Part shown: piece by piece, positions 30,719 through 34,509 of the stretch
Layout of the letters: the number at the start of each line of letters is the position of its first letter
How positions within the stretch are numbered: position 1 is the stretch's first letter
NCBI GenBank assembly: GCA_012517865.1
Contig: JAAYUC010000001.1
Span: forward strand, 62,001 to 126,000
Source of the DNA: Chloroflexota bacterium
GTDB taxonomy: Bacteria > Chloroflexota > Anaerolineae > Anaerolineales > Anaerolineaceae
Length of the DNA: 64,000 nt
Direction: 5' to 3'
Notes under the pieces: generated by a model
Seen by the model: only the letters and a program-made list of their open reading frames with translations
Told to the model about the DNA's origin: nothing
Database searches by the model: none
Translations under genes and position numbers: made by a program

Positions 30719-32956
30719 TTAAACCACGGCTAAATCGAAAGCCTGGACTGGGAGCGGCAGCTGGATGCCGCCTTTCAGCGTCCATTCCATCAGTACCTCC
30801 GGGGCAATGCCAAACGGCAGCAGCACGCTCCCTCCGGCTTTTGCCAGCAATTCCATGTATTTGCGCAGGTCCAACGAATGCGGGTCGACTTTTCCGCTCA
30901 ATTCCCAGGCGCGCACGTCCGGTTCGCCCTGCATAAACAGAAAACGCACGCGCTGGCCGGGGCGGACTTGCATGCCGGCTTTGACCAGCTGCCGCGCCGC
31001 GCGCACGGCCGCGGTCGCGCTTTTGTACGCTTCGAGCGCGTAGCTGACTTTGCCGTTGATTACCAGCAATTCCAGCGGGACGCGCCCCGCTTTTAAGGCT
31101 GCCAGCGCGTCCTGGTAAACCTCAAAGGCAGCGTTAAGCGCCTGGGGGAGTTCCGAGCGGTTCCTTGCCTGCCCAAGCCGCGCAATCATCTCGGTTTGCA
31201 CCTGCCCAATCCAGCGCGGGGTATCCCTGCGGCGGGCTTCCAGGCCGCGGACTTTGATTTCCCCGCTCTGGAACACGCCAAAATAGCGGTTGGCAATCGG
31301 GATGCGCGCGTCCATTTTGGAGGGAAGAAAAGCAACCCAGCGGAAAACCCCATCCAGAGCAATGGCAAGTCCGGTGCGGTTCACAATTTTATGCATCACT
31401 TCCTCAAAATGCTCTGGTTTGCTGCAGCCTTTCTTTTTGAGCCAGAGCGCGTCCACGTACATCTGCAGCACTTCAAAACCTTCTTCCTCAGCCACCTCCT
31501 TGGCGAGCATCAGCACCTCGCGTCCGCCCCTGGTCACCGCTTCGTGCGCTTCAATGCGTCCGTAGCGGGCGTTTTTGTAGCCAAGAAAGCCAAAACAAAC
31601 CACCAGCAGCCACTTAAGCGCCGATGAGCGCGCTTTGAGCATCTTTGCCATGGGATGGTCCGGCGGATACGAACGTGTTTTAGCCTTCAGCGCCACGCGT
31701 TTTTCGTAAATTGGTTTGAGCGTGAGCGGAACCACGCCCAGTTCCTCACTGGCGGGTGTCAGCACATCCGGGAGAGGAACTTCCGGCGAGATGTTTCCGC
31801 GGATAATTACCGCGGGATACATAGAAACAAAATCTACCTCGGCTACATCGCTGTGCAGCCCCAGCTTGGGCTGGTAAATCATTCCGCCGCGGTCTGACTG
31901 GATAAGCTGCATACCGCTCTTAAATTCTTCCACCTGGCGTTTCTGGTAGGGCACCAGAATATCCTTTTGCAGCGCGGTGATGACCTGCATAGCGGAGATG
32001 CCCTGACCAGGCGAGACGCGCGCCGCTTTCTCGATTGGCAGGGTGGTCACACGCGCCATTTCCAGCGTGCCTGCCAGGCTGTAATCCGACCACATCATCG
32101 CAGATTTGCGGTCAATATGGCAGCGCCCGAACAGATGCGCCTCTTCCGGGCGGTAAATGATGTGTCCGTAAGAAAAATAAGTGATTTCTTTCTGCCAGCG
32201 CACAGGGCGGCTGTCATCACGGTTAAGCTTCAGAGTGACCTGATGCTCTTCCATCTGCTTTAAGAGGAAAGGCAGCAGCCAGCTGTCGCCCCAGTCGGTG
32301 ATGAGAATATCGGGGTCGTAGTCCAGCAGCGCAGCGTTCAGGGTGGATAAAAAAGCGCCGTCCGGCGTGAGCGGCAGAGTCTGACTGAAGCGGTCCGAGC
32401 GCATGGCAAGCGCGCGCACCGACCCGTGCGCGGGGTCAACATCCGGAACCAACTCCATCACGCGCAGTGGTGGGAGCGCCGGCATCAAATCCCAGCGGCT
32501 GTTGAGCACGGAAATGGATTGGATGCGGTTCTGGGCGTCCGCCTCAAGCTCGCACAGCGCCAGCGGAAACGCGCCGTACCGACTGATATAACGCGTGCTG
32601 ATGGTGACATCCGAGTCGTACCAGGTAAGGTCCTGGAATTCCTCTTCGAGCTGGCGGAACAACGCGGCCTGATGCGCCGGGGTGTCAACGTCGATGCGCA
32701 GCACGGTTACAGGGTCCGCCGCAAACACATCCTGCTTTTGCTGGCGCGCAAGCGCGGTTACGCACGCCTCTTTGCGCAGCCGCTTCCACAGTTGGCGCAG
32801 CTGCTCCTGCGGGCCGGCGGCGTAAAACGCCACGGGAAACGCCTGTGTGAAACACAGCCGGCGGTCGTCCGTTTCCGAGATAAACCACAGCGTCAGGCCG
32901 TCCTGTTGATTCAGGTACAGGTCGAGCAGCCAGCCGCGGAAGCTTGTGTTGGTCAC
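30719..32956 (-). CDS. Divergent family-B DNA polymerase-like protein, likely inactivated (PolB2-like)
   Basis: 745 residues, GTG start that overlaps the upstream stop (GTGA). Polymerase motif A is DFVSMYPA (D375), motif B is K448-WLLVVCFGFLGYKNARYG, and motif C is MYVDALWL (D502, A503, L504) instead of YxDTDS, so the second catalytic Asp is missing. The exonuclease half is also degenerate: the second Exo block reads YDPDILITDWGDSW without the usual GxN..FD. This recalls the archaeal/bacterial PolB2 group, noted for damaged catalytic motifs. Last gene of a three-gene unit with a LexA-like promoter. Likely a structural, weak or specialised polymerase in DNA-damage tolerance. The DNA looks GC-richer than the flanks. 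Confidence 0.82.
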   Translation of the reverse strand: MTNTSFRGWLLDLYLNQQDGLTLWFISETDDRRLCFTQAFPVAFYAAGPQEQLRQLWKRLRKEACVTALARQQKQDVFAADPVTVLRIDVDTPAHQAALFRQLEEEFQDLTWYDSDVTISTRYISRYGAFPLALCELEADAQNRIQSISVLNSRWDLMPALPPLRVMELVPDVDPAHGSVRALAMRSDRFSQTLPLTPDGAFLSTLNAALLDYDPDILITDWGDSWLLPFLLKQMEEHQVTLKLNRDDSRPVRWQKEITYFSYGHIIYRPEEAHLFGRCHIDRKSAMMWSDYSLAGTLEMARVTTLPIEKAARVSPGQGISAMQVITALQKDILVPYQKRQVEEFKSGMQLIQSDRGGMIYQPKLGLHSDVAEVDFVSMYPAVIIRGNISPEVPLPDVLTPASEELGVVPLTLKPIYEKRVALKAKTRSYPPDHPMAKMLKARSSALKWLLVVCFGFLGYKNARYGRIEAHEAVTRGGREVLMLAKEVAEEEGFEVLQMYVDALWLKKKGCSKPEHFEEVMHKIVNRTGLAIALDGVFRWVAFLPSKMDARIPIANRYFGVFQSGEIKVRGLEARRRDTPRWIGQVQTEMIARLGQARNRSELPQALNAAFEVYQDALAALKAGRVPLELLVINGKVSYALEAYKSATAAVRAARQLVKAGMQVRPGQRVRFLFMQGEPDVRAWELSGKVDPHSLDLRKYMELLAKAGGSVLLPFGIAPEVLMEWTLKGGIQLPLPVQAFDLAVV

Positions 32957-33372
32957 GGCGCCTCTTCAAAGTCGGTATACGCGGCAGACGCGAGCGGTTC
33001 CTCCGCTTCTTCCAGCATTGCCGCGCTCGGGGACGCTTCCGGGGATAAAACTGCCAGGGTTTCATTGAGCAGCGTGAGAAAACGCGCCTCTTTTCCGCTG
33101 TCCAGTTTTACGCTGGGATCCGCGCTTTCCGGAAGAATCTGCTTTTGGAGCGACTTCAGCTGCTTATACACCTCCAGCAGAATGGCAATCAGATACATAT
33201 CCAGCGGGTATAGATTGGAGGCGTACGAAGCTTCCGCCAGGTGCAGGCGGGAGAGCACCAGAAGTTCATCCAGCAGCAGCTGGTCCTCTTTGCGCAGCGC
33301 GCGCTGAAAGCGTTTGAGGGCGGCTTCTTCCTGCTGCCAGGTTTGGGTAATGGAAGCAATTGTGCGGCCCAT
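32953..33372 (-). CDS. Small helical protein of PolB cassette, 139 aa
   Basis: Start placed at ATG 33372, with AAAGG 6 nt upstream; the frame is open to 33480 but would overlap the upstream gene. About 139 residues, mostly amphipathic helices (ASITQTWQQEEAALKRFQRA; LLLDELLVLSRLHLAEASYA), with an acidic tail. No family recognised. Tightly packed: 11 bp after the RecA-like stop, and its TGA overlaps the polymerase GTG. By position it is a candidate bridging or adaptor subunit between the RecA-like and polymerase-like proteins. Confidence 0.65.
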   Translation of the reverse strand: MGRTIASITQTWQQEEAALKRFQRALRKEDQLLLDELLVLSRLHLAEASYASNLYPLDMYLIAILLEVYKQLKSLQKQILPESADPSVKLDSGKEARFLTLLNETLAVLSPEASPSAAMLEEAEEPLASAAYTDFEEAP

Positions 33373-33383
33373 CGGCATCCTTT

Positions 33384-33950
33384 CTAGAACAATGCCGGCT
33401 GCAGGCCGAAGCCGGCCGGCAGAGAAATGGGTTCCTCCCATACGGCGCTGGCGCTGGCGCGCAGCTGCTCCATCAGACATTCGCGCGCCGCGGATATGGG
33501 CGGAATGGGTTTGAGACTGACTAAAACCGGCGCGGCCTGGCTGAGGCGCTCCAGGCAGGCAATGCTGCGGGTAAGCAGGCGCTGACAGTCTTTCAGCTTC
33601 ACATCCTCATCCAGGAAGGTCGCCAGAAGGTCCAGAATCACCAGCGGTTCGCGCGGCGGGGCGGCAGAGACAGCTTCCAGCATGGCCAGAACCTGATAGC
33701 AGGTAAAGGCGCGCGAGAGGCGGATTCTGTTCATCACACCGACCGGGTCGCTGGTAAAAGGCCGGATCGCCCGCGCAACCGCGTACATATTGGAACGGTT
33801 GCCGCAGTCCAACAGGGTCACGCGCTGTTTCAGGGCTAATGCGGCGACCAGCTCCAGCATTTTTTCAGACATCGCGTGGCTGCCAATAACCAGCAGCAAC
33901 TGCGGCGGCAGGGGGTGGGAGAAGGGGAGTAACGCGGCGTCTGTTCTCAT
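33384..33950 (-). CDS. RecA/RadA-like ATPase paralog lacking Walker A
   Basis: 188 residues. The fold order resembles the RecA core: a strand VIGSHAMSEK where Walker A should be (no GxxxxGKT), TLLDCGNRSNMYAVARAI, then NRIRLSRAFTCYQVLAML, much like the RadA/Rad51 segment around ARAFNSDHQ, and a Walker-B-like LVILDLLATFLDE. Similar in idea to ImuA and SulA-like RecA relatives that do not hydrolyse ATP. First gene of the cassette; -10 TATAAT ends 6 nt before the ATG, so translation is probably leaderless. Family assignment rests on pattern, not on a search. Confidence 0.65.
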   Translation of the reverse strand: MRTDAALLPFSHPLPPQLLLVIGSHAMSEKMLELVAALALKQRVTLLDCGNRSNMYAVARAIRPFTSDPVGVMNRIRLSRAFTCYQVLAMLEAVSAAPPREPLVILDLLATFLDEDVKLKDCQRLLTRSIACLERLSQAAPVLVSLKPIPPISAARECLMEQLRASASAVWEEPISLPAGFGLQPALF

Positions 33951-33956
33951 ACCTCT

Positions 33957-33984
33957 ATTATATAGAATATTTGTTCTATGTCAA
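33957..33984 (-). promoter_or_regulatory. Near-consensus sigma70-type promoter of PolB cassette
   Basis: Minus strand TTGACA (33979-33984), 16 nt spacer, TATAAT (33957-33962). The ATG follows 6 nt later. Both hexamers are perfect, so the promoter should be strong unless repressed; the palindrome in its spacer offers a repressor site. Confidence 0.8.
33963..33978. promoter_or_regulatory. LexA-like operator 1, inside promoter spacer
   Basis: TAGAACAAATATTCTA (minus strand): perfect 5 bp arms TAGAA/TTCTA, filling exactly the space between -35 and -10. Compared with the Gram-positive-type SOS box GAAC-N4-GTTC it reads GAAC-AAAT-ATTC, one mismatch. Confidence 0.5.
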
Positions 33985-33993
33985 GAGATTATC

Positions 33994-34007
33994 AGAACAA
34001 TTGTGCT
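33994..34007. promoter_or_regulatory. LexA-like operator 2, upstream of promoter
   Basis: AGAACAATTGTGCT: near-perfect palindrome (6 of 7 pairs). Core GAAC-AATT-GTGC differs from GAAC-N4-GTTC by one base. Located 10 bp upstream of the -35, about 30 bp centre to centre from operator 1, so three helical turns apart. Confidence 0.5.
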
Positions 34008-34059
34008 AATTATATGCGATGATTGGCGGTTTGACAGCGCGCGGAGCAGGGGAGTTGGG

Positions 34060-34092: not shown

Positions 34093-34509
34093 ATGATGAC
34101 CACGATTAAAGGTAGTGAAAGCGGCGCGACCGTACGAAATCGATTATCCAAATCCATTGTTTTGGCAATCCGGCTGCTCATGCGGCAGCAGTCGCCGGAC
34201 GCCTTAAGTCGCGATTTGGCAGCATATGTTGTGCTGGCTTTGGAAAAAATCGCCGAATCGGTCGAGGTTAGCGCCAGCGCCTGGGAAAAACGCGATTACT
34301 GGCTTAAAGCGGATCGTTTTCGTCAGGAATGGGCGTGGTGTGAACGCAGCGCGAAGGCTTTGGCAAGCGCTCTGCGTTCGAATGACTGGACGGGCACGGC
34401 TCAGAGCCTGGCGGAAATCGGCCAGCGCCTGAGCGCAGTGGAAGTCAGCCAGAATAATCGGCTGGGAGAGCCCTGGAAAGGCGCGTGGGAGATTTTCCTC
34501 CGCCGTTAA
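34093..34509 (+). CDS. Uncharacterised helical protein, about 138 aa
   Basis: Start at ATG 34093 or 34096 (tandem ATG ATG; AGAGGA just upstream); the open frame extends left to 33790 but overlaps the RecA-like gene and lacks signals. 137-138 residues, Trp/Ala/Arg-rich, predicted all-helical (LSKSIVLAIRLLMRQQ; LKADRFRQEWAWCERSAKAL). No signal peptide, no recognised family. Divergent from the polymerase cassette across about 140 bp that carries the two operators, so it may belong to the same regulon. Confidence 0.6.
   Translation: MMTTIKGSESGATVRNRLSKSIVLAIRLLMRQQSPDALSRDLAAYVVLALEKIAESVEVSASAWEKRDYWLKADRFRQEWAWCERSAKALASALRSNDWTGTAQSLAEIGQRLSAVEVSQNNRLGEPWKGAWEIFLRR

Follow-up and report, generated by a model that had tools for sequence, protein, structure and literature searches.

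In a 64,000-nucleotide stretch of a Chloroflexota genome (family Anaerolineaceae; assembly GCA_012517865.1, contig JAAYUC010000001.1, positions 62,001 to 126,000; hereafter the window), the minus strand carries a three-gene operon, running from 33950 to 30719, that encodes an inactivated RadA/Rad51 homologue (iRadA), a small helical protein (PPB2), and a family-B DNA polymerase (PolB2). Our analysis indicates that this cassette is very probably a bacterial PolB2 mutasome directly controlled by LexA, which would extend primer termini at lesions and mismatches (Table 1). The genes are tightly packed: 11 base pairs (bp) separate the iRadA stop codon from the ATG of PPB2 at 33372, and the GTG start codon of PolB2 overlaps the PPB2 stop codon by 4 bp (32953-32956). 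An earlier sequence-only reading of this DNA had reported three leftward genes with these distances, and the open reading frames agree with it. We place the PPB2 start at 33372 because the MGRT sequence that begins there is the conserved N-terminus among homologues (70 of 74); an in-frame ATG at 33378, six nucleotides upstream, is not a conserved start.

Table 1. Features of the iRadA-PPB2-PolB2 operon. The gene organisation, the position of the operator, the retention or loss of catalytic residues, and the clamp motif are read from sequence; single-chain folds are predicted.
Feature	Position in window	Strand	Basis
iRadA, inactivated RadA/Rad51 homologue, 188 amino acids, gene 1 of operon	33384..33950	-	family profile, AlphaFold2 model, Walker A check
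PPB2, arCOG07300-type small helical protein, 139 amino acids	32953..33372	-	MGRT start, family profile
PolB2, family-B polymerase, 745 amino acids	30719..32956	-	PF00136, PRK05761, structure model
-35 element TTGACA	33979..33984	-	promoter score
-10 element TATAAT, 6 nucleotides from iRadA ATG	33957..33962	-	promoter score, start distances
Primary LexA operator AGAACAAATATTCT, within promoter spacer	33964..33977	-	conserved in 24 distinct relatives; same placement in lexA, recA
Second, weaker LexA-like site AGCACAATTGTTCT	33994..34007	-	conservation limited to the window's closest relatives
Beta-clamp-binding-like motif QPALF, extreme C-terminus of iRadA	33387..33401	-	sequence; motif in homologues
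MGRT N-terminal arm of PPB2	33361..33372	-	M1 G2 R3 T4 invariant in family alignment
D(K/R) motif of PolB2, D282-R283	32108..32113	-	D282 invariant, 80/80
PolB2 motif A catalytic Asp D375	31832..31834	-	invariant, 80/80
PolB2 motif C QMYVD, residues 498-502; D502 is the kept second Asp	31451..31465	-	alignment to 5mdn; D502 80/80

The linkage of the three genes is conserved, in keeping with the co-occurrence that the earlier reading proposed to look for. Among 80 named Chloroflexota loci, 74 encode iRadA, 74 encode PPB2, and 70 keep the order iRadA-PPB2-PolB2. Within the genus, 27 of 29 genomes (the window's own included) encode PolB2, as do 6 of 8 other sampled family members and 10 of 24 from the order; this sample shares some genomes with the 80-locus set, and the two are not independent. 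Cultured carriers of the operon (Flexilinea, Longilinea, Levilinea, and Leptolinea) make the predictions below testable. Family profiles also detect haloarchaeal homologues of PolB2 (E about 1e-135), PPB2 (E 1.5e-15), and iRadA (E 2e-6), whose genes follow a Cdc6 gene and keep the same order. The cassette is thus not a new kind of system, and the suggestion that it might not have been described as a unit fails. Makarova et al. (2014; PMC4104785) reported the operon of PolB2, inactivated RadA, and arCOG07300, including its three-gene linkage in bacteria and the presence of lexA within the same operon in some of them. Extending the work of Rogozin 2008 and Makarova 2014, Timinskas et al. (2025; PMC11791011) modelled it as a heteropentameric mutasome, the first multimeric family-B translesion polymerase described in prokaryotes; iRadA-PPB2-PolB2 is the sole gene order reported for it in bacteria. 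What the present analysis adds, as far as sequence can tell, is the regulation: an SOS operator shared with the recA and lexA promoters.

Neither iRadA nor PPB2 is recognised by Pfam or NCBIfam, and we therefore used family profiles and a structure model. The iRadA profile matches RadA structures (E 3.5e-5), and its AlphaFold2 model (predicted local distance difference test, pLDDT, 89) matches RadA/Rad51 with probability 1.00 and E 6.5e-7. The protein has the RadA/Rad51 fold without the ATPase site and without the N-terminal domain: the Walker A pattern GxxxxGK[ST] occurs in none of 26 aligned iRadAs, confirming the sequence-only reading of a RecA/RadA-like protein without Walker A. As a bare pattern match, the Walker A string does occur in one of the 74 open frames of the 80-locus set. 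Of 74 iRadA homologues, 58 have a motif of the form Qxx[LFIM][FL] close to the C-terminus. PPB2 is helical, as had been proposed, and homologous to archaeal PPB2. In the genus it carries a variable acidic C-terminal tail of about 50 amino acids (window 32953-33100) that ends in a conserved YxxFEEAP-like motif and is missing in most other genera; the ribosome-binding site of PolB2 overlaps this tail and may constrain part of it.

PolB2 matches PF00136 (E 6.8e-24) and the archaeal-type family-B model PRK05761 (E 4e-109), with bit scores of 366 for the archaeal-type model and 57 for the Pol II model. Its predicted structure (pLDDT 89) resembles archaeal PolB structures (E 4e-38; top match 5mdn). 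In a profile alignment with 5mdn, motif C reads QMYVDALW against YGDTDSLF, so that Tyr stands in place of the first Asp and the second Asp is retained. D375, K448, D502, and D282 are invariant across all 80 loci, and position 500 is Tyr or Phe in every one. The residue after D282 is Arg or Lys in 52 of the 80; this D(K/R) motif of a PolB2 loop is described in the PolB2 mutasome literature as the contact for the PPB2 arm. The exonuclease site is degraded: in the 5mdn alignment VPD stands opposite the ExoI DIE and Leu opposite the ExoII Asp, and we infer that PolB2 lacks proofreading activity. The earlier description of a damaged motif C holds in part: the motif is non-canonical and its first Asp is gone, but the invariance of D502 speaks against a dead site. 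Nor should the altered motif be read as inactive, because Sulfolobus islandicus Dpo2, which has the same loss, is an active extender of mismatched and lesion-containing termini and is needed for damage-induced mutagenesis (PMC8764526). The same work proposed that a His in motif C stands in for the lost Asp. Residue 498 is His in 75 of the 80 relatives and Gln in 5, and the window's PolB2 has Gln; the variant thus offers a natural test of that proposal.

These residues bear directly on an alternative, first proposed for the archaeal family, in which PolB2 has no catalytic activity and the complex plays a structural or regulatory part, such as holding on to a stalled fork or bringing in another polymerase. 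The lost Asp and the degraded exonuclease site fit this idea, and both Rogozin 2008 and Makarova 2014 (PMC4104785) took the family as inactivated. Set against the invariance of D375, K448, and D502, and against the finding that S. islandicus Dpo2 is as active as the replicase despite the same loss (PMC8764526), we consider it unlikely.

The operon's promoter matches the sigma-70 consensus at 12 of 12 positions, with a 16-bp spacer between its two elements. AGAACAAATATTCT lies within the spacer and AGCACAATTGTTCT outside it, each one mismatch from AGAAC-N4-GTTCT, and all parts of the perfect promoter with two GAAC-N4-GTTC-like palindromes noted earlier are present. Such palindromes are common: the window holds 27 GAAC-N4-GTTC-like sites against 23.5 expected, no excess above chance, and a loose scan of the whole genome for AGAAC-N4-GTTCT with two mismatches was uninformative (538 matches versus 530 in the control). 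The significance of the operator rests instead on its conservation and on its placement shared with lexA and recA. The genome encodes a single LexA above cut-off (235 amino acids; C25). Its lexA promoter reads CTTGACAG-TGAACATTTGTTCT-GTTATTAT, its recA promoter CTTGACAGGT-CGAACAATTGTGCT-ATATTTA, and the window operon's promoter CTTGACAT-AGAACAAATATTCT-ATATAAT. The box thus occupies the same promoter position upstream of lexA and recA, where the sequence-only reading had suggested looking, and the LexA box of the genus matches the palindrome. Relatives show the same placement in lexA, recA, and iRadA promoters, for recA in all sampled genus members and fewer outside the genus. In a comparison of 24 distinct iRadA promoters, information content is 1.3-2 bits per position in the half-sites and 0.4-0.8 bits at the first three central bases. 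Of 74 homologous operons, 36 have a site with no more than one mismatch just upstream, compared with 0.5 expected after shuffling; Flexilinea flocculi TC1 has a relaxed box, AGAATAATTGTTCT.

A strict pattern, TTGAC-N2..5-GAACNNNNRTKCT, finds exactly three matches in the window's genome, at recA, lexA, and the PolB2 operon, and none with the reversed pattern as control. In nine genomes of the genus, 26 of 29 matches, assigned to genes by comparing coordinates, are promoters of recA, lexA, or the PolB2 operon, and the other three equal the three control matches. The pattern was written after inspecting these promoters, so that the counts speak to exclusiveness and are not an independent discovery; it also leaves room for SOS genes with boxes placed elsewhere. 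We consider direct LexA control of the operon well supported, with the operator position taken from sequence and repression as its expected consequence. Under a competing explanation, the palindrome would serve a repressor other than LexA or have arisen by chance, and the SOS response would not control these genes. Chance frequency of such sites in the window and a loose genome pattern equal to its control are what this would predict, but it accounts poorly for the operon's sharing its box position with lexA and recA, both in this genome and in relatives, for the strict scan's three matches in this genome, and for near-invariant half-sites in the 24 promoters. We consider it very unlikely.

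The TATAAT element lies exactly six nucleotides from the first in-frame start codon in 28 of 33 distinct promoters, and one more has starts at both 0 and 6. Given this gap, we predict that iRadA mRNA is leaderless, with transcription starting at the start codon. Leaderless bacterial genes, including some in Chloroflexi, are reported to be marked by TA-like signals about 12 bp ahead of their starts (PMC3160421). lexA and recA have normal leaders. The arrangement is not unique to the operon, as three other gene-like open reading frames of the window share a similar -10/start spacing.

Taken with the conserved linkage and the non-canonical motif C, the matching LexA box lends good support to the earlier proposal of a B-family analogue of a LexA-controlled mutasome, and we infer the following sequence of events. 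In undamaged cells, LexA bound to the palindrome between the -35 and -10 elements would block RNA polymerase. Upon DNA damage, RecA filaments would trigger LexA self-cleavage, and the operon would fire alongside recA and lexA. The mRNA would probably start at the iRadA ATG, and PPB2 and PolB2 would be translated by tight coupling. PolB2, with its metal-binding D375 and D502 but presumably no proofreading, would then assemble with iRadA and a PPB2 trimer into a pentamer, which the C-terminal QPALF of iRadA would tether to the beta clamp. By analogy with archaeal Dpo2 and the published models, this complex would extend primers whose ends are mismatched or carry lesions, so that damage is tolerated at the cost of mutations.

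Two observations weigh against this interpretation. The window's QMYVD stands where nearly all relatives have HMYVD, and activity could differ. Operons of distant Chloroflexota often have no recognisable box, and LexA control is therefore not universal. The archaeal homologues raise the further idea that the complex acts in replication initiation or restart rather than in translesion synthesis. Haloarchaeal operons adjoin a Cdc6 gene, and Makarova et al. (2014; PMC4104785) suggested this option; archaeal Orc1/Cdc6 homologues, however, are damage-response regulators (PMC11791011), S. islandicus requires Dpo2 for damage-induced mutagenesis (PMC8764526), and the bacterial operon is wired to LexA. 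A replication role therefore appears very unlikely.

The closest known relative is the bacterial G2 group of the PolB2 mutasome, with which the cassette shares gene order, MGRT arm, altered motif C, dead exonuclease, dead RadA ATPase site, iRadA clamp motif, and a link to LexA. That link takes a different form: lexA lies in the operon there, whereas here the operator is inside the core promoter and common to lexA and recA. Also particular to this cassette are a predicted leaderless mRNA, the genus-specific acidic PPB2 tail ending YxxFEEAP, and Gln for His in motif C. The Sulfolobus Dpo2 operon is a three-gene, damage-inducible operon with a homologous polymerase (inducibility here being expected from the operator), but it has archaeal Orc1/Cdc6-type regulation and uses PCNA instead of the beta clamp. 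The ImuA-ImuB-DnaE2 mutasome follows a similar logic, a degenerate RecA-like protein with an error-prone polymerase under LexA, but the polymerase here is of family B. Pol V (UmuD'2C-RecA) is likewise a multimeric translesion polymerase under LexA; it too has a partner from the RecA family and a small subunit that reaches into the polymerase with an arm, though its polymerase family and small subunit are unrelated. E. coli Pol II (polB) is an SOS-controlled family-B extender, but is a single subunit with an active exonuclease and a canonical DTD, and PolB2 has neither an intact exonuclease site nor that motif. To our knowledge, no bacterial PolB2 mutasome has been tested experimentally.

The 99.8%-complete assembly yielded no umuC, imuB, or dnaE2. 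Its single Y-family gene is DinB-like and has no LexA box, and the only DnaE found is DnaE1-like and interrupted by a contig end. By sequence, the PolB2 mutasome is the only LexA-linked translesion candidate seen in this assembly. The module was acquired by bacteria from archaea, and the lineage shows an archaeal repair module fitted to a bacterial cell, with a bacterial-type clamp motif and an SOS operator in its promoter. Tentatively, and with the odds somewhat against it, the SOS response of the genus could be almost purely mutagenic: the sole promoter-embedded LexA operator besides those of lexA and recA would serve an archaeal-derived, leaderless B-family mutasome, the chief inducible mutator in a lineage that lacks UmuC, ImuB, and DnaE2. 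A role in anti-phage defence was considered and rejected, as PADLOC gave only a homing-endonuclease model match, over the polymerase region.

The module also occurs in phages. Leptospira LE1-type phages carry a full iRadA-PPB2-PolB2 operon with a PPB2 that starts MGRT (KF114879.1, L288:2689-5945; KF114878.1, L289:2719-5771), annotated only as hypothetical proteins and DNA polymerase family B. The profiles match each small phage protein with E about 1e-15 to 1e-17; direct BLAST with PPB2 finds nothing in phages. Unnamed PHROGs families match iRadA and PPB2. The phage PolB2 has motif C AITDSLF, and upstream of the phage operons we found no box among the few types tried. Phages are not mentioned in the main text of Timinskas 2025 (PMC11791011). 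These copies suggest that the module also moves on mobile elements, like umuDC-type genes. Separately, 101 plasmid records (for example L290 and L291) contain a PolB2-like polymerase, and those listed are haloarchaeal; two inspected loci read Cdc6-iRadA-PPB2-PolB2.

Divergent from the operon promoter, the plus strand encodes a 138-amino-acid helical protein (34093-34509) with no family match above cut-off, and the second LexA-like site sits between this gene and the operon. Elsewhere in the genome, a perfect LexA-type palindrome, AGAACTTATGTTCT, includes the start codon of mraZ, the first gene of a division and cell-wall cluster (L048:1970-1983; C33:29769). Another, AGAACTTTTGTTCT, lies 20 bp upstream of a gene for a 163-amino-acid helical protein without a known family, beside a YgjP-like metallopeptidase (L047:2040-2053; C28:40539). 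The gene for a 148-amino-acid LuxR/GerE-type regulator has a palindrome with a single mismatch 3 bp ahead of it (L064:1918-1931; C28:44417). Finally, a cassette with a RecA-like ATPase resembling a phage recombinase, possibly an SOS-controlled prophage, follows the box AGCACGAATGTTCT (L074:2018-2031; C41:61917).

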